Below, in pieces: positions 5,785-11,436 of a stretch of 64,000 nucleotides of DNA; the first letter of the stretch is position 1, and every line of letters starts with the position of its first letter. This DNA is from Pseudonocardia oroxyli. GTDB lineage: Bacteria; Actinomycetota; Actinomycetes; Mycobacteriales; Pseudonocardiaceae. The notes below the pieces were generated by a model. The model was not told the DNA's origin, did not search any database, and worked only from the letters and a program-made list of their open reading frames with translations. The DNA is taken from positions 248,001 through 312,000 of the forward strand of contig NZ_FNBE01000002.1 in the NCBI RefSeq assembly GCF_900102195.1, given 5' to 3'. The translations under genes and the position numbers were made by a program.

Positions 5785-6162
5785 ATGGCGATCGACCCCA
5801 CCGGCGCGGATCTCAAGGCCTACCTCTCCGTCGACCCGGACGAGCCCGTGACGATGCTGAACCTGCTGCGCTTCGTCGAGGGCGGCCGGGCCCGCTACGA
5901 CGAGTACATCGCGCACTTCCGGCGGACGTCCGGCCGGTTCGGCGCCGAGGTCGTCTACTACGGCTACGGCGGCGCCCCGGTCGTCGCGGAGGACGGGCAG
6001 GCGTGGGACGCGGTGCTGCTGGTGCGCTACCCCAGCAGGCGCGCCTTCTCGGACATGGTGCGGGACCCCGAGTACCAGAAGGGCACCCACCTGCGCACGG
6101 AAGCGCTGGTCGAGGCCCTCCTGCAACCGACGACCCCCACCGAACGCATTATGGAACCATAA
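5785..6162 (+). CDS. DUF1330 domain protein
   Basis: A 125-residue ferredoxin-fold (dimeric alpha-beta barrel) protein. Family features are the MLNLLRFVEGGRARYDEYI opening, an internal GAEVVYYGYGGAPVVAEDG hairpin and a RYPSRRAFSDMVRDPEYQKGTHLRTEAL ending. DUF1330 proteins are small, soluble and mostly uncharacterised. It follows the SulP gene by 14 bases and may be cotranscribed. Its final five codons and stop fall inside a 59-bp inverted repeat, so the C-terminal ERIMEP is made by that repeat. This suggests that the repeat, or a change in it, redefined the end of the protein. Confidence 0.8.
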   Translation: MAIDPTGADLKAYLSVDPDEPVTMLNLLRFVEGGRARYDEYIAHFRRTSGRFGAEVVYYGYGGAPVVAEDGQAWDAVLLVRYPSRRAFSDMVRDPEYQKGTHLRTEALVEALLQPTTPTERIMEP

Positions 6163-6205
6163 TGCCGTTTTCGGGGCCCGAAACCGACATCATGGTTCCA
6201 TAATG
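6147..6205. repeat. 59-bp imperfect inverted repeat with two near-palindromic cores
   Basis: The segment reads almost the same on both strands, with a few mismatches, and is centred on a GGGGCCCG core. Each arm begins with an 18-bp near-palindrome: 6147-6164 (CATTATGGAACCATAATG) and 6188-6205 (CATCATGGTTCCATAATG), 41 bp apart. It overlaps the stop of the DUF1330 gene and ends 11 bases before the stop of the convergent anti-sigma gene. It could act as a bidirectional terminator hairpin, a double operator for a dimeric repressor, or a small mobile palindrome. It is AT-rich compared with everything around it. Confidence 0.85.
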
Positions 6206-6216
6206 CGGCTGTGGGC

Positions 6217-6975
6217 TCAGACCTGCCCGCTCGCGACGACGCGGCTCGGTGTGGTCGGGGCGGCGCGGCCCGGTTCCAGGGACACCGCGTAGCCGACGGC
6301 GCCCGGGTCCGCGGCCAGCGTGACGACCTGGGTGCCTGCCGAGCGGGCGTCGAACGTCCCCAGGGGGCGCGGTTGCCCCGAGCCGATGCCCCACAGCACG
6401 TACACCGAGTTCGTGGCGTCGTTCGCGGGCAGCGCGGCGACGACCAGGCGGGTGGTCCCGTCGCCCGCGACGACCGCCGCGACCGCGGTGCCCGCCTCGT
6501 CGTGCAGCGTCGAGCGCGCGTCACCCGGCGTGGCGACGGCGGCGACGGCCCGGTCGAGCGTCGAACCGGTCCGGTCCACCGCGGCGCCCGCCAGTCCGCC
6601 CACGGCGATCGCGCAGGCCACGGCCAGGACGGTCCCGACGAGTCGGCGCGGGCGGCGCGGCCGGCGCCGCGCGACCCCGTGGCGGGGGAGGACCGTCGGC
6701 CGGACCGGCCGGACCGGTGGGTGCGGGCGGGGACCCGCCGTGGTCGGCGGCGCCGCCCGGTCCAGGATCCGGGCCCGCAGGTCGGCGGGCGGGCGTGCCT
6801 CGGGGATGGCGCGCCCGAGCGCGGCCAGCAGGGACTGGTAGTCGGGCAGCGCGGCGGTGCACTCGGCGCACCCCGCGACGTGGTGCTGGACGGCCAGCTC
6901 GTCCGCGGGCTCCAGGGCGTGCAGCGCGAAACCGACGAGCTCGCGGCTCATCGGGCACGGCGTGGTGGTCCTCAT
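6217..6975 (-). CDS. RskA-type anti-sigma factor (second pair)
   Basis: A 252-residue transmembrane anti-sigma factor. The N-terminal zinc-binding anti-sigma domain shows the H-x3-C-x2-C motif (His32, Cys36, Cys39 in HHVAGCAECTAAL). A basic Pro-Arg linker leads to one membrane helix (about 112-133, LVGTVLAVACAIAVGGLAGAAV). The extracytoplasmic part resembles the RskA C-terminal domain (VYVLWGIGSGQPRPLGTFDA). It should hold the sigma factor encoded just upstream until a surface signal triggers proteolysis. Its ATG overlaps the sigma stop by 4 bases (ATGA), so the pair is translationally coupled. It is the last gene of a six-gene minus-strand operon. Confidence 0.9.
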   Translation of the reverse strand: MRTTTPCPMSRELVGFALHALEPADELAVQHHVAGCAECTAALPDYQSLLAALGRAIPEARPPADLRARILDRAAPPTTAGPRPHPPVRPVRPTVLPRHGVARRRPRRPRRLVGTVLAVACAIAVGGLAGAAVDRTGSTLDRAVAAVATPGDARSTLHDEAGTAVAAVVAGDGTTRLVVAALPANDATNSVYVLWGIGSGQPRPLGTFDARSAGTQVVTLAADPGAVGYAVSLEPGRAAPTTPSRVVASGQV

Positions 6976-7622
6976 CGGAGGTCCCCCTCGGCGAGCACCG
7001 GGCCGAGCGCGGTCCGCAACCGGGCCAGCCCGGCGAACATCCGGGACTTCACCGTGCCCAGCGGGCTGTCGGTCAGCGAGGCGACCTCGCGCTGGGTGTA
7101 GCCGCCGAAGTAGGCCAGGGAGAGCGCGTGGCGCTGCTCCTCGGGCAGGGCGGCCAGGGCCCGCCGCACCGCCGCCGCGGTGACCGAGGCGAGCGCCGCG
7201 CCGTCCGCGCCGGGTGCGGCGGGGAGGGGCTGCTGCTCGTCGAGGGTGGTGGTGCGGCGGCGGACCCCCTCCTCGCGCCGGACGAGATCGACGGCCTTGT
7301 GGTGCACGAGGGTCATCACCCAGGTCCCCACTCGTCCCCGGGTGGCGTCGAACCGCGCGGCGCCCCGCCAGACGGCGAGGAACGCCTCCTGGACGGCGTC
7401 CTCGGCGTGGGCGTCGTCGGCGCAGATCCGCCGGGCCAGGGCCCAGGCCTGGCGGCCGTAGCGGTCGTAGAGGCCGGCGAGCGCGCTCCGGTCGCCCGCG
7501 GCCAGGGCGTCGAGGAGGTCCTCCTCGGTGAGCGGGCCGGGACCCGCGCTCACCCCGGGCGGCGCCGCGGGTTCAGGTCGGTACACAGCTCTGTGTTCGG
7601 AGCCGGCCCGCCCGCGGTTCAC
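6972..7622 (-). CDS. ECF RNA polymerase sigma factor (second pair)
   Basis: A 216-residue group 4 sigma factor. Region 2 runs through LYDRYGRQAWALARRICADDAHAEDAVQEAFLAVW, and region 4 ends with YTQREVASLTDSPLGTVKSRMFAGLARLR, the helix-turn-helix for the -35 element. There is no extra C-terminal domain. The ORF can start at GTG 7622, directly after the stop of the preceding anti-sigma gene. A GTG at about 7553, just before the conserved LTEEDLLDAL, is an alternative. It overlaps the partner anti-sigma by 4 bases. SigK/SigL-like assignment is plausible from the RskA-type partner but not proven. Confidence 0.92.
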   Translation of the reverse strand: MNRGRAGSEHRAVYRPEPAAPPGVSAGPGPLTEEDLLDALAAGDRSALAGLYDRYGRQAWALARRICADDAHAEDAVQEAFLAVWRGAARFDATRGRVGTWVMTLVHHKAVDLVRREEGVRRRTTTLDEQQPLPAAPGADGAALASVTAAAVRRALAALPEEQRHALSLAYFGGYTQREVASLTDSPLGTVKSRMFAGLARLRTALGPVLAEGDLR

Positions 7623-8282
7623 TCACAGCTCGCCGTGGACGACGACGCGGCCGTCGGGGTCGAGGACGTCGAACCCGGCGGCCTGGGCCCGCAGGACCGA
7701 GGTGTTCAGGTTGCACACCATCGGGTCCGCCCCGGTGCCGAGGAACTCGCCCGCGCCGACGGTGCGGCCCGCGTCGTCGATGACGACGACCCGGTAGGGG
7801 GTGCCCGCGGTGAACCCGTCGGCGTCGAGGGTGATCTCGATGCCCCAGGTGTGCGGGATCACCGTGGCCGAGGCCTGGACCCCGCCCGCGAGGGTGCGCA
7901 CGGCGACGGCCTCGCGGGGCGCGTCCGGCCCGGTTCCGGCGATGAACCCGACGCCCCCGCCGACGAGCGCCGCGACCACCACGGCGGCCGCGACGAGCAG
8001 CGGGGCCCGGCGCCGCGGCGGCGCGGCGGCCGGGCGGGGGGTGCGGCGGACCTCGTCGAGGACCCGTTCGATCAGGAACGGCGGCGGGGCCGGGGCGTGG
8101 GCGAGGTCCTGGGGGGCGACACCGGCGAGCGCGTCCGCGACCGGGCGCAGGTCGTCCAGCTCGGCGCGGCAGTCGGGGCAGCCGTCCAGGTGGGCGCCCA
8201 GCGCCGTCTCCTCCGGTGCGGTCAGCCCGCCGAGGAGGTACGCGCCGAGCTGTTCGCGGATCGTGCGGTGGCTGTCGTTCAC
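7623..8282 (-). CDS. zinc-binding anti-sigma factor (first pair)
   Basis: A 219-residue anti-sigma factor with a GTG start at 8282, overlapping the sigma stop (GTGA). The N-terminal zinc motif is H-x3-C-x2-C (His31, Cys35, Cys38 in HLDGCPDCRAEL). A Pro-rich linker leads to one membrane helix (about 92-115, APLLVAAAVVVAALVGGGVG). A C-terminal beta-rich extracytoplasmic domain (GIEITLDADGFTAGTPYRVVV) follows; it differs from the RskA domain of the second pair. That difference suggests the two pairs sense different cues although they share a transcript. Its stop abuts the next sigma start with no gap. Confidence 0.9.
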   Translation of the reverse strand: MNDSHRTIREQLGAYLLGGLTAPEETALGAHLDGCPDCRAELDDLRPVADALAGVAPQDLAHAPAPPPFLIERVLDEVRRTPRPAAAPPRRRAPLLVAAAVVVAALVGGGVGFIAGTGPDAPREAVAVRTLAGGVQASATVIPHTWGIEITLDADGFTAGTPYRVVVIDDAGRTVGAGEFLGTGADPMVCNLNTSVLRAQAAGFDVLDPDGRVVVHGEL

Positions 8283-8896
8283 CGCTCCACCCCCATCTCG
8301 TCCATGGCCAGGCGCAGGGCCTTCAGGCCGTAGAAGATCCTGCTGCGCAGGGTGCCGATCGGAATGCCGAGCTCGGCGGCCACCTCGGCGTGGGGACGGC
8401 CGCGCAGGTGGGTCTGGGCGATCGCGTCCCGGTGCTCGGGGCGGATGCGGCGCAGCGCCTCCTCGACGACCCAGGTGTCGACGACCGCCCGGTCCAGCCC
8501 GTCGGTGACCGGGGCGGTGGGGGAGTCCTGGGGTGCGTCGGTCAGCGTCCGCCGCCAGGGGCGGGCGGCGACCCGGCGGGCCTCGTCGACCACGGCGTTG
8601 CGCGCGATCGAGAACAGCCACGAGCGCAGGCTCGCGATCTCCGGGTCGTAGGTGTCGGCGCGGCGCCACGCACGCAGGAACACCTCCTGCACCACCTCCT
8701 GCGCCGCGCCCTCGTCGCCCAGCTGCCGCAGCGCGAAGCGGTAGAGCTCCGCGCCGTAGGCGGTGTAGGCGCGGCGCAGCCCGACCTCGGTGTCGAGCGC
8801 TCCCGGTGCCGGGCCGGCGACCGGGGCCGCCCGTCGGACCACTCCCATGGACATCCCTCCGGGAGGACGTACGTGCGCGGGCGCCGGATCGTTCAT
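8279..8896 (-). CDS. ECF RNA polymerase sigma factor (first pair)
   Basis: A 205-residue group 4 sigma factor. Region 2 is YRFALRQLGDEGAAQEVVQEVFLRAWRRADTYDP, and region 4 carries GRPHAEVAAELGIPIGTLRSRIFYGLKALR. The annotated ATG at 8896 overlaps the sortase stop by 4 bases. Internal ATGs at codons 15 and 17 are alternatives, and the first codons (MNDPAPAHVRPPGG) look non-conserved. It is followed by its anti-sigma gene with a 4-base overlap. Likely autoregulation of the operon by this sigma factor is inferred from arrangement only; I could not define a matching promoter. Confidence 0.92.
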   Translation of the reverse strand: MNDPAPAHVRPPGGMSMGVVRRAAPVAGPAPGALDTEVGLRRAYTAYGAELYRFALRQLGDEGAAQEVVQEVFLRAWRRADTYDPEIASLRSWLFSIARNAVVDEARRVAARPWRRTLTDAPQDSPTAPVTDGLDRAVVDTWVVEEALRRIRPEHRDAIAQTHLRGRPHAEVAAELGIPIGTLRSRIFYGLKALRLAMDEMGVER

Positions 8897-9444
8897 CCGG
8901 TGCGCACGGCGTGGACCACGAGGTTGTCGGTGTAGCTGCGTGCGCCCCGGTCGAACGCGCCCGCGCAGGTGACCAGCCGCACGACGTCCTCGCCGGTCGC
9001 GCCGAACACCGCGAACGTCGGGAACGCGTCCTTGGCGACCTGCTCCACCCGCTCGACGGCGTAGACCGCGCGCTGTCCGCCGCGCTCGACCTCCACGCGG
9101 TCGCCCGCCGCCAGGTCGCGGAGGCGGTGGAAGACCGCCGGTCCGCTGCGGGAGTCGACGTGGCCGAGCAGGACCGTCGCCGCGCTGCGGCCGCCTCCGG
9201 CGAACCAGCCGACCCGCGCGTAGTCGGCGGGCACCTCGGCCGTCCCGTCCGGGGCCACGCCGAGGGGGATCGGCGCCGTGTCGATCCCGAGGGCCGGGAT
9301 CCGCACGGCGGTGGGCGGGCCCGGCGGGCCGGTTCCCGTGCTCGCGGGCGGCCCCGACACCGCGGGCTGCGGTGTCGGGGCCGCGGAGCAGCCGACGGTC
9401 AGGAGCGCGGCGACCGCGAGCGGGACCAGGTCACGCCGACGCAC
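8893..9444 (-). CDS. class F-type sortase, predicted lipoprotein
   Basis: A 183-residue transpeptidase-fold protein. A basic N-terminus and hydrophobic stretch end in a lipobox-like LLTVGC (Cys19), so it is probably a lipid-anchored surface protein. Sortase catalytic residues are visible: His95 in LLGHVDS, Cys160 in RLVTCAG and Arg169 in GARSYTDN. Short actinobacterial enzymes of this layout belong to class F, whose substrates are poorly known. It overlaps both the CHRD gene upstream (14 bases) and the sigma gene downstream (4 bases). The CHRD protein has a C-terminal membrane segment and Arg tail, so it is the obvious candidate substrate. Confidence 0.88.
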   Translation of the reverse strand: MRRRDLVPLAVAALLTVGCSAAPTPQPAVSGPPASTGTGPPGPPTAVRIPALGIDTAPIPLGVAPDGTAEVPADYARVGWFAGGGRSAATVLLGHVDSRSGPAVFHRLRDLAAGDRVEVERGGQRAVYAVERVEQVAKDAFPTFAVFGATGEDVVRLVTCAGAFDRGARSYTDNLVVHAVRTG

Positions 9445-10147
9445 GGCGGCGGAGCCAGACCGCCCCGCCTGCGCCGGCGGCCAGCACCGCGCCTGCCCCG
9501 AGCGCGATCGCAGCGGTCCCGGTGTCGGTCTCGGTCGCGGCGCCGCCCGCGCCCGTCGCGACCCCGCCCATGGGCACCTCGGTCAGCTGGCCGCGCACCG
9601 CACCCGCGGTGAACGTCGCGGTGTGGGTGTCGGTGAAGAACGCCGCCGGGTCGGCCTCGATCCGGTCGAGGGTGAACCCGGTGCCGGTGTCCTGGCCGTT
9701 CGCCATGACGCCCGTGGTGAACGGTCCCTGCAGGCAGCCCGCGCTGCGCAGGGTGCCGTCCCCCGCGTCCTCGGGGTTGGGGAAGGCGATGCGCGGCGGA
9801 CCCGCGGACCCGGCGTCCCCCTCGTGGATGTGCGTCGCCGTGCGGGCGGGGCTCTGGTAGGGCGGGGTGACGCCGTCGAGGGTGATGTCGTAGCAGATCA
9901 CCTCGAGCTCGCTGTTGAGCCGGTAGTGGAAGGTCCCGGTCGCGCCGGGCTCGCCCGGCGTGGCGACGCCGTCGTTGTTCACGACCATGTCCGGGGTGGC
10001 CATCGCGGTGAACATGCTGGTGAACTCGGCGGGCTCGGCCACCTCGCCGTCCTGGGCGCTCGCGGTGCCCGCCCCGAAGGCGGCCAGGCCTGCGACCACG
10101 GCGGCCACCGTGGCGGCCCGCAGGGTGCGGTGCAGAACGCTCGTCAT
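9431..10147 (-). CDS. secreted CHRD-domain protein with C-terminal membrane anchor
   Basis: A 238-residue exported protein. The signal peptide spans about residues 1-30 (ending near GTASAQ). A CHRD domain fills most of the mature part: TGTFHYRLNSELEVICYDITL, then HIHEGDAGSAGPPRIAFPNP, and TATFTAGAVRGQL near the end. A Gly/Ala-rich hydrophobic helix and an Arg tail (WLRRRASA) close the protein. No LPXTG motif precedes the helix; the nearest sequence is ETDTGTAA. Start ATG 10147 has a GGGAGA ribosome site. It heads the six-gene operon, followed by the sortase that may anchor it. Confidence 0.85.
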   Translation of the reverse strand: MTSVLHRTLRAATVAAVVAGLAAFGAGTASAQDGEVAEPAEFTSMFTAMATPDMVVNNDGVATPGEPGATGTFHYRLNSELEVICYDITLDGVTPPYQSPARTATHIHEGDAGSAGPPRIAFPNPEDAGDGTLRSAGCLQGPFTTGVMANGQDTGTGFTLDRIEADPAAFFTDTHTATFTAGAVRGQLTEVPMGGVATGAGGAATETDTGTAAIALGAGAVLAAGAGGAVWLRRRASA

Positions 10148-10185: not shown

Positions 10186-10230
10186 ATACGAAGCCGACGG
10201 CGGTCGCGTTCACCGCGGGGAGCGGCCGAT

Positions 10231-10401: not shown

Positions 10402-10578
10402 CTAGTGCGCGTGCTCGTGGACCTGCTCGGCCGCGGCGTCGTGCGCGTGGGTGTGCTCGTGGGAGTCGCCGTCGTGGCTGTGGGTGTGGCTGTGCTCGAC
10501 GTGCTGGTGCTCGTGCGCCCCGTGCTCGTGGGTGTGCGCGGTGTCGCCGTGGCTGTGCTCGTGGGTGTGAACGCTCAT
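10402..10578 (-). CDS. histidine-rich small protein, predicted metal-binding
   Basis: A 58-residue peptide in which 21 residues are histidine, arranged mostly as His-x-His with Glu, Thr, Ser or Asp between (start MSVHTHEHSHGDT, end VHEHAH). Such alternating repeats bind nickel, zinc or copper, as in Hpn-like storage proteins and His-rich chaperones. No signal peptide or membrane segment is visible, so it is probably cytoplasmic. ATG 10578 is chosen because the upstream extension to 10641 is not His-rich. The reading frame has strong codon consistency (CAC for His), so it is unlikely to be chance. A nickel/cobalt transporter lies 9 kb away. Confidence 0.68.
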   Translation of the reverse strand: MSVHTHEHSHGDTAHTHEHGAHEHQHVEHSHTHSHDGDSHEHTHAHDAAAEQVHEHAH

Positions 10579-10686
10579 GACGGCAGACGGTAGGCCCCGC
10601 GGCGCCCCGGCGGAACGGGTTCGGCGCTCTCCCCAGGACATTCCTGTTGCCGCGTCGTTGCAGGTGAGAGGCCCTCTCCCCTGGCC

Positions 10687-10726
10687 GTGAGCGGCGATAG
10701 TCGCCCTGGCGACGATCGCCGCTCAC
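10687..10726. repeat. 40-bp extragenic palindrome, copy 1
   Basis: Two 19-base arms starting GTGAGCGGCGAT pair almost perfectly (one mismatch) around a 2-base CT centre. It lies between the katG remnant and the His-rich gene. A near-identical element occurs at 56672-56711. The structure resembles REP-type extragenic palindromes; it could also act as a terminator, although no U-tract follows. Confidence 0.8.
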
Positions 10727-10738
10727 AGTCGTGGATCG

Positions 10739-11436
10739 TCAGCGCAGGTCGTAGCGGTCCAGGTCCATGACCTTCACCCACGCGGCGACGAAGTCGCGGA
10801 CGAACCGCTCCGTGGCGTCGTCGGCGGAGTAGACCTCGACCATCCCGCGCAGGATCGAGTTCGAACCGAACACGAGATCGACGGCCGTGGCGGTGCGCAC
10901 GACGGTGCCCTGGGCGTCCCGCGCCTCGTACACGCCCTCCTCGTCGCGCGCGGTGCCCCACTCGACGTCGAGGTTCAGCAGTGTCCGGAAGATGTCGTGC
11001 GCCGTCGAGACCGGAGGGGGGCGAAGCGCTGGGCGCCCTCGCCCGCGCCCCCGCGGCCGTCGAGCTGGCGGTAGGTGCCGGCGGCGTGCCAGGACATGCG
11101 GATGAACAGCGGGCCGTAGTGGCCCCAGTCGGCGGGCCACCAGTCCTGCGAGGTGCGCATGACCGAGACGATGTCGGCCTTGACGGCGTCGAAGTCCAGC
11201 TGCGCGACGGCCTTCTTGTAGTCGAAGTCGGCGCCCAGCAGGTCGGGGTCCGGCGAGGTCCGGGTGAGGACGGACAGCTCGACCTGGTCCGGCCACCAGT
11301 CGCGGTTGCTGCGCGGCCGGTGCTCCGGGTGGAACGTGGGGCCCGCCAGCGCCGGGTTCTCGCTCTCGCTGCGGCTCGCGGTGGTGTCGGTGCCCTGCGG
11401 GCTCGCGGTCTCGTCTCGGGGTTTCGGGTCGGTCAC
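10739..11436 (-). pseudogene. katG: katG catalase-peroxidase remnant (internal deletion)
   Basis: The first part, from GTG 11436 ([13 protein letters not shown]), matches the KatG N-terminus through the distal heme-pocket motif [11 protein letters not shown] and [14 protein letters not shown]. The sequence then jumps, near 11025-11035, into a different frame that encodes the extreme KatG C-terminus: [32 protein letters not shown], then FVRDFVAAWVKVMDLDRYDL. About 500 residues, including the proximal heme ligand, are missing compared with the usual 740. It cannot be an active enzyme. A furA remnant lies directly upstream, as furA does before intact katG in mycobacteria. Confidence 0.92.

Follow-up and report, generated by a model that had tools for sequence, protein, structure and literature searches.

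Six closely packed genes on the minus strand of the Pseudonocardia oroxyli genome (G000, 6.1 Mb) raise the question of whether a sortase and its likely surface substrate are governed by one sigma/anti-sigma circuit or by two acting together. The genes lie in the 64-kb stretch of DNA analysed here, which we call the window, and open reading frame (ORF) calls place them in the order CHRD (a surface protein), sortase, SIG1 and ANTI1 (an extracytoplasmic function (ECF) sigma factor and a membrane anti-sigma factor), and SIG2 and ANTI2 (a second sigma/anti-sigma pair). The original prediction for this DNA took the block to be a single transcript on which two sensing circuits could act jointly on cell-wall anchoring. 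We favour instead, with a probability of roughly 0.7, a reading in which the block divides into three transcription units belonging to two independent ECF circuits, the first directed at the units bearing SIG1-type sites and the second at SIG2/ANTI2 and a fasciclin gene located elsewhere. A tight run of genes can thus be two unrelated circuits set side by side.

A promoter-like motif, TGAAC-N17-CGTA, is found upstream of both CHRD (P1) and SIG1 (P2). These two copies compare with 0.08 expected in the window, and they are two of only seven strict sites in the whole genome, where the reversed-pattern control gave one. We surveyed 62 Pseudonocardia genomes, our own included and some of them assembled in many contigs. 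Across the genus the motif precedes CHRD in 16 of 17 loci, counting the window, with the exception (G073) differing by one base, and in 23 of 28 loci, again counting the window, SIG1 follows a site in which CGTA or CGAA comes at a spacing of 17 or 18 (three with spacing 18, one with CGAA). The motif is also kept in the four loci, of the 38 compared below, in which CHRD-sortase lies away from any strong SIG1 match. P2 begins on the sortase stop codon, a fusion of stop codon and -35 element seen likewise in G029, and SIG1 therefore has a site of its own.

The same pairing extends well beyond the genus. We examined 54 named actinomycete CHRD loci, not all of them independent, since several come from the same Pseudonocardia genomes. 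CHRD is preceded by the strict motif in 41 of them, with one more at spacing 18, none at spacings 12-16 or 19-22, and none for the reversed control. A SIG1 match (E below 1e-15) falls within the flank of 44 loci, being divergent in 32, convergent in 8 and co-directional upstream in 4, and the arrangement in the window adds a fourth kind to these three; among the remaining ten, L162 has split SIG1 matches and L155 a weak one. SIG1 itself is preceded by the strict motif in 26 of 46 loci. No ANTI2 match was found at any of the 54 loci, two of which carry a weak SIG2-like match of 30-33%. Adjacency and a shared motif that recur across many genera support SIG1/ANTI1-CHRD as a widespread actinomycete module, usually accompanied by a sortase, which we consider the most lasting result, and to this extent the idea that one sigma/anti-sigma pair is tied to CHRD and its sortase holds, the pair being SIG1/ANTI1.

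A sortase match stands beside CHRD in 42 of the 54 loci. We considered the sortase as the core of the module and rejected this, since SIG1/ANTI1 stay beside CHRD at loci without a sortase match. At a tblastn threshold of 1e-5 no sortase was found at the Arthrobacter loci L171, L179 and L184, the Serinicoccus loci L191 and L193-L195, or L190 and L192, where downstream ORFs were listed only, without a Pfam scan. The CHRD homologues at L190 and L192 have LAETG where others have GVxTG, with no sortase match next to them, which looks like a natural change of sorting route; a GGxxTG signal is retained at the Serinicoccus and Arthrobacter loci, likewise with no adjacent sortase match. Because both kinds of locus exist, the sortase is a usual but not a constant partner.

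Within the genus, ANTI1 was matched in 61 of the 62 genomes (1e-3), ANTI2 in 53 and CHRD in 22 (both 1e-12), many of the weaker matches being other anti-sigma factors. Once overlapping weaker tblastn matches at one place had been removed, 38 loci were compared, namely the window (L104), five other places in its own genome and 32 around stronger matches elsewhere, of which L010 and L069 are the same place. The CHRD-sortase and SIG1-ANTI1 sets are convergent in 12 of these loci and co-directional only in the window and G029, and four have CHRD-sortase with no strong SIG1 match. G029 shows the order sortase-SIG1-ANTI1 as in the window, with the sortase at a contig end and CHRD on another contig. 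It lacks a second pair, a sortase-like C-terminal fragment following ANTI1, and gave no ANTI2 match at 1e-12 (assembly completeness 91%). Only in the window does SIG2/ANTI2 adjoin the CHRD-sortase-SIG1-ANTI1 set, and for none of the other genomes do the match lists put a strong ANTI1 match close to an ANTI2 match, although contig ends limit some cases (e.g. ANTI1 of G024). Conservation of the six-gene order among relatives had been fixed beforehand as one yardstick for the original prediction, and a search of the other 61 genomes, some of whose assemblies are fragmented, did not find it.

The second pair carries a promoter-like form of its own. The motif GAACC-N16/17-CGAA lies upstream of SIG2 homologues in 11 of 11 loci (ten other genomes chosen from the ANTI2 matches, plus a second copy on contig C8 of the P. 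oroxyli genome), with none for the reversed control. The window holds one such N16 site, at 7620-7596 directly after the ANTI1 stop (P3), and a scan of the window found none upstream of CHRD. In a 12-row tree ANTI2 groups with its homologues from G025, G031, G074 and G077 (support 100/99), apart from the other RskA of its own genome, on C8. The SIG2/ANTI2 pair adjoins a fasciclin-type lipoprotein in G025, G031 and G074 (PF02469 confirmed for G025 and G074) and a molybdopterin oxidoreductase in G077. No fasciclin gene lies beside the pair in the window, which does not therefore hold a sigK-rskA-fasciclin cassette. The genome's own copy is on contig C37, encodes a protein 83% identical to the one beside the G025 pair and has a SIG2-type site 77 bases upstream, ending in CGAACA as at SIG2. 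The fasciclin genes of G025, G031 and G074 have two SIG2-type sites each, and a weaker fasciclin match in the P. oroxyli genome (46%) has none upstream. With SIG2-type sites at SIG2 and a fasciclin gene and none upstream of CHRD, joint control of anchoring by both circuits finds no support.

The best solved-structure match of SIG2 is SigK (2.7e-28), and its score of 161.2 bits against NCBIfam PRK09646 (SigK; cut-off 226) leaves it outside the SigK subfamily as modelled. The SigK consensus is CCATCC and CCGAAT. ANTI2 matches RskA_C (PF10099) at 1.2e-13, with 51.9 bits against a gathering threshold of 29.4, and is thus of RskA type, its zf-HC2 match falling below cut-off. The nearest described system is the mpt83-sigK-rskA cassette with the SigK regulon, as set out in an excerpt of PMC7509140, which the window pair resembles in having SigK as the nearest relative of SIG2, an RskA_C domain in ANTI2 and a fasciclin neighbour in three relatives. 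It differs from the cassette of that excerpt in that its own fasciclin gene lies on another contig, SIG2 scores below the SigK cut-off and ANTI2 keeps an HxxxCxxC motif. SIG2/ANTI2 is most likely, from these comparisons, a relocated SigK-RskA-type cassette, one that normally sits beside a fasciclin gene.

If the two circuits are indeed independent, ANTI1 would hold SIG1 at the membrane until an envelope signal, sensed by its outer domain, brings about release. Freed SIG1 would then transcribe the sig1-anti1 pair from P2 and CHRD-sortase from P1. The CHRD protein would be exported, and the sortase would probably cut its GVxTG signal and fix it to peptidoglycan. In the second circuit SIG2/ANTI2 would drive itself from P3 along with the fasciclin lipoprotein on the other contig, and the position of this pair behind ANTI1 would be specific to the lineage.

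Several observations weigh against this reading. The strict motif is absent upstream of CHRD in 13 of the 54 named loci (one of these has spacing 18) and at 20 of the 46 SIG1 loci, five of which have near variants (four Serinicoccus CGAAC, one CGAA), and upstream of SIG1 spacings 13 (one locus) and 21 (two) also match. SIG1 identity in the more distant genera is 36-44%, a level at which orthology is not proven. Across the 62 genomes we counted 472 strict motifs and 185 copies of the reversed pattern, which is as common or commoner in nine of them; on number alone, most copies are background, and it is position that carries the argument. P3 is unremarkable by itself (0.26 expected in the window, with 25 of 100 shuffles reaching one) and also fits TGAAC-N17, the SIG1 site of one relative (G069) ends in CGAACA as P3 does, and the block yielded no terminator-like site on the minus strand, so that read-through between units is possible.

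The last of these points would also suit a cascade, in which SIG1 additionally uses P3, or transcription reads through from P2, such that circuit 1 raises SIG2/ANTI2 and not the reverse. P3 does contain TGAAC with N17 before CGAA, the G069 site offers a precedent for its ending, and nothing resembling a terminator separates ANTI1 from SIG2. We nevertheless regard a cascade as rather unlikely, given that P3 has the SIG2-type form and that this form is found at SIG2 in all 11 other loci, where no SIG1 module stands beside it.

Less probable still is one six-gene transcript from P1 that couples both circuits and lets two envelope signals act jointly on anchoring. It would account for the tight packing and the short overlaps inside pairs (GTGA for SIG1/ANTI1, ATGA for SIG2/ANTI2; the CHRD and sortase ORFs overlap by 14 nt), for the terminator scan, whose single match is on the plus strand inside CHRD, and for a strong hairpin that appears only past the last gene. 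A sigma-70 scan found no promoter within the block. Promoter-like sites nevertheless stand at both pair boundaries, which, together with the absence of the gene order from the 61 other genomes and of a SIG2-type site upstream of CHRD, leaves the single transcript unsupported. The same sites alter the original picture of six genes that all overlap or abut: order, strand and names stand, and the close joins at sortase/SIG1 and ANTI1/SIG2 probably do not. The ATGA overlap of sortase and SIG1 is probably a start-codon artefact, since P2 begins on the sortase stop and the ATG at 8848 has a suitably spaced GGAGGG. The ANTI1 stop and a SIG2 GTG at 7622 do abut; as the promoter-like site covers 7621-7594, the start used is probably 7586 or 7553.

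That the motif matches reflect chance or coding constraint is hardly credible: P2 does overlap the sortase stop, P3 on its own is not rare and the genus-wide copies are mostly background, but the strict SIG1-type motif is rare in its own genome and spacing is 17 in 41 of 42 CHRD-upstream matches across genera with differing spacers and neighbours.

Table 1. Genes, promoter-like sites and hairpin of the six-gene block (window coordinates)
Feature	Position	Strand	Remarks
CHRD surface protein	9431..10147	-	238 aa; signal-peptide-like start, GVATG sorting signal, membrane segment, basic tail
Class F-like sortase	8893..9444	-	183 aa; PF04203; lipobox-like LLTVGC near N-terminus
SIG1, SigL-like ECF sigma	8279..8848	-	ORF open from 8896; ATG 8848 likelier start
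ANTI1, membrane anti-sigma	7623..8282	-	zinc-motif N-terminus, membrane helix, outer domain with conserved HTWGxE...C..N
SIG2, SigK-like ECF sigma	6972..7622	-	start uncertain: 7622, 7586 or 7553
ANTI2, RskA-like anti-sigma	6217..6975	-	PF10099
P1, SIG1-type promoter-like site TGAAC-N17-CGTA	10187..10212	-	upstream of CHRD
P2, SIG1-type promoter-like site TGAAC-N17-CGTA	8870..8895	-	first three bases are the sortase stop codon
P3, SIG2-type promoter-like site GAACC-N16-CGAACA	7594..7621	-	just past ANTI1 stop
Hairpin after ANTI2	6145..6207	.	31-nt arms, 90% complementary

By Pfam, SIG1 and SIG2 are both ECF sigma factors, each with Sigma70 regions 2 and 4 only. The best solved-structure match of SIG1 is SigL (2.1e-30) and its best NCBIfam model PRK09645, which we take to be the SigL model (the model itself is named only as sigma-70 family), at 159.1 bits, short of the cut-off of 202. 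The SigL -35 element is TGAACC. The pair resembles mycobacterial SigL-RslA in that SIG1 is nearest to SigL, ANTI1 is a membrane anti-sigma factor with a zinc motif and the pair has its own promoter-like site; it differs in its -10 sequence, CGTA, in the predicted CHRD-sortase target of SIG1 and in the score below the PRK09645 cut-off. An excerpt of PMC6372665 describes SigL specificity as strongest for G at the last -10 position; the -10 of the SIG1 type is CGTA. The score and the -10 sequence led us to reject SIG1 as a SigL ortholog. SIG1-type sites were also noted at two further places. One site, in the P. oroxyli genome (L125, C4:155295), lies about 80 bases upstream of a lipoprotein-like ORF, a possible further regulon member. 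The other place has two oppositely facing sites upstream of SIG1 in G061 (L088, C86:42057-42106), suggesting a divergent target.

Both anti-sigma factors keep the same zinc motif, HxxxCxxC, as originally proposed, and ANTI1 matches zf-HC2 in Pfam (4.7e-10). The motif is missing from 7 of 23 ANTI1 homologues, the more distant ones, and in the outer domain H144, W146, E149, C190 and N193 are kept in all 23 rows. In a profile comparison ANTI1 and ANTI2 align only over the N-terminal part and membrane segment; compared by themselves, the outer domains gave no alignment. We considered a common origin for these domains and set it aside, as this comparison failed to show it, although 5 of the 23 ANTI1 homologues match RskA_C with E-values of 0.1 or lower (the best 9.2e-5). 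The description of one anti-sigma factor as RskA-like and the other as not is therefore right for the window proteins and may, given those five homologues, reflect divergence.

The CHRD protein contains the PF07452 domain (1.5e-14) and, at its C-terminus, the sorting domain NF058571 (GVDTG_CTERM), of which its 44.8 bits against a cut-off of 29 make it a member. GGVxTG is present in all 17 Pseudonocardia rows of the alignment. The sorting domain was matched at three places in the P. oroxyli genome (two over cut-off), each adjoining one of four sortase matches. For the window sortase, Pfam gives PF04203 (6.3e-20), and the best NCBIfam model is sortase class F (NF033748) at 138.4 bits, below the cut-off of 166; class F being the best among the sortase classes listed, we call the enzyme class F-like. 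It shares with class F sortases this best model and keeps the GHVDS and TCAG blocks conserved in the Pseudonocardia alignment, and it departs from them in its sub-cut-off score, its lipobox-like N-terminus and a neighbour with GVxTG rather than LPxTG. Close to the N-terminus of the sortase, 14 of 18 aligned rows have a cysteine after a short hydrophobic stretch, a pattern we infer to be lipoprotein-like; starts were picked automatically in this alignment, and one row is clipped by a contig end. At 5 of the 12 convergent loci (L076, L078, L082, L084, L086) the sortase is followed, on its own strand, by an FtsW/RodA-like gene, an assignment based on Pfam PF01098 at one locus and an 83% match at a second.

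Among the papers searched, none contained both 'CHRD domain' and 'sortase', and the single one with the word GVDTG concerns a fungal allergen. According to an excerpt of a 2026 paper (PMC13251363), what class F sortases do physiologically is unknown, and deletion of all four in Actinoplanes missouriensis gave no phenotype. With a regulator, a substrate, a sorting motif and a promoter predicted here, a role for a class F sortase becomes directly testable.

We also considered predicted models of CHRD and ANTI1 (pLDDT 79 and 83). For CHRD, all among the 50 Foldseek matches listed are superoxide dismutases (SODs) or SOD complexes (best E 5.1e-3), and realignment to SOD (Z 11.4, 113 aligned, 2.8 Å) likewise gives the predicted model a Cu,Zn SOD-like fold. 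An excerpt of PMC13382577 gives an SOD-like fold for chordin CHRD domains and describes the metal ligands there as not conserved; the window protein shares the fold by prediction, and H106, H108 and H175 do not vary in any of the 34 CHRD rows. For the ANTI1 outer domain Foldseek places CBM29, neocarzinostatin and adhesin domains first, with SODs from rank 15 (E 2.0e-2), and after realignment nearly all of the top 50 are SODs (Z 9.3, 94 aligned, 2.5 Å), a Z barely above that of models without clear matches. The resemblance of this domain to SOD is suggestive, and it lies in predicted folds only, profile comparison finding no link between the ANTI1 outer domain and CHRD. It is conceivable, though we think it doubtful, that SIG1/ANTI1 forms a circuit, widespread in actinomycetes, dedicated to a SOD-fold protein anchored in the wall. 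Sensor and effector, both bearing invariant His/Cys, would then perhaps both be Cu,Zn SOD-like and perhaps answer one and the same signal, metal or redox, and the class F-like sortase, a lipoprotein of GVxTG specificity, would serve to mount that one effector.

The hairpin past ANTI2 may end transcription. It has a z of -8.9 and is one copy of a hairpin dispersed through the genome, with arms CATTATGG..CCATAATG and 27 palindromic places genome-wide (at most one mismatch), many of them paired 41 bases apart. On the other flank, positions 10739-11436 hold a catalase-peroxidase gene remnant. Two separate ORFs encode about 105-130 residues from its N-terminal part (7e-45) and 89 residues from its C-terminal part (3e-24), and the central part is absent. 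A 19-nt inverted repeat (10687-10726, 95% complementary) comes after the remnant, and a short histidine-rich ORF with HTHEHSH repeats (10402-10641) lies between the remnant and CHRD.

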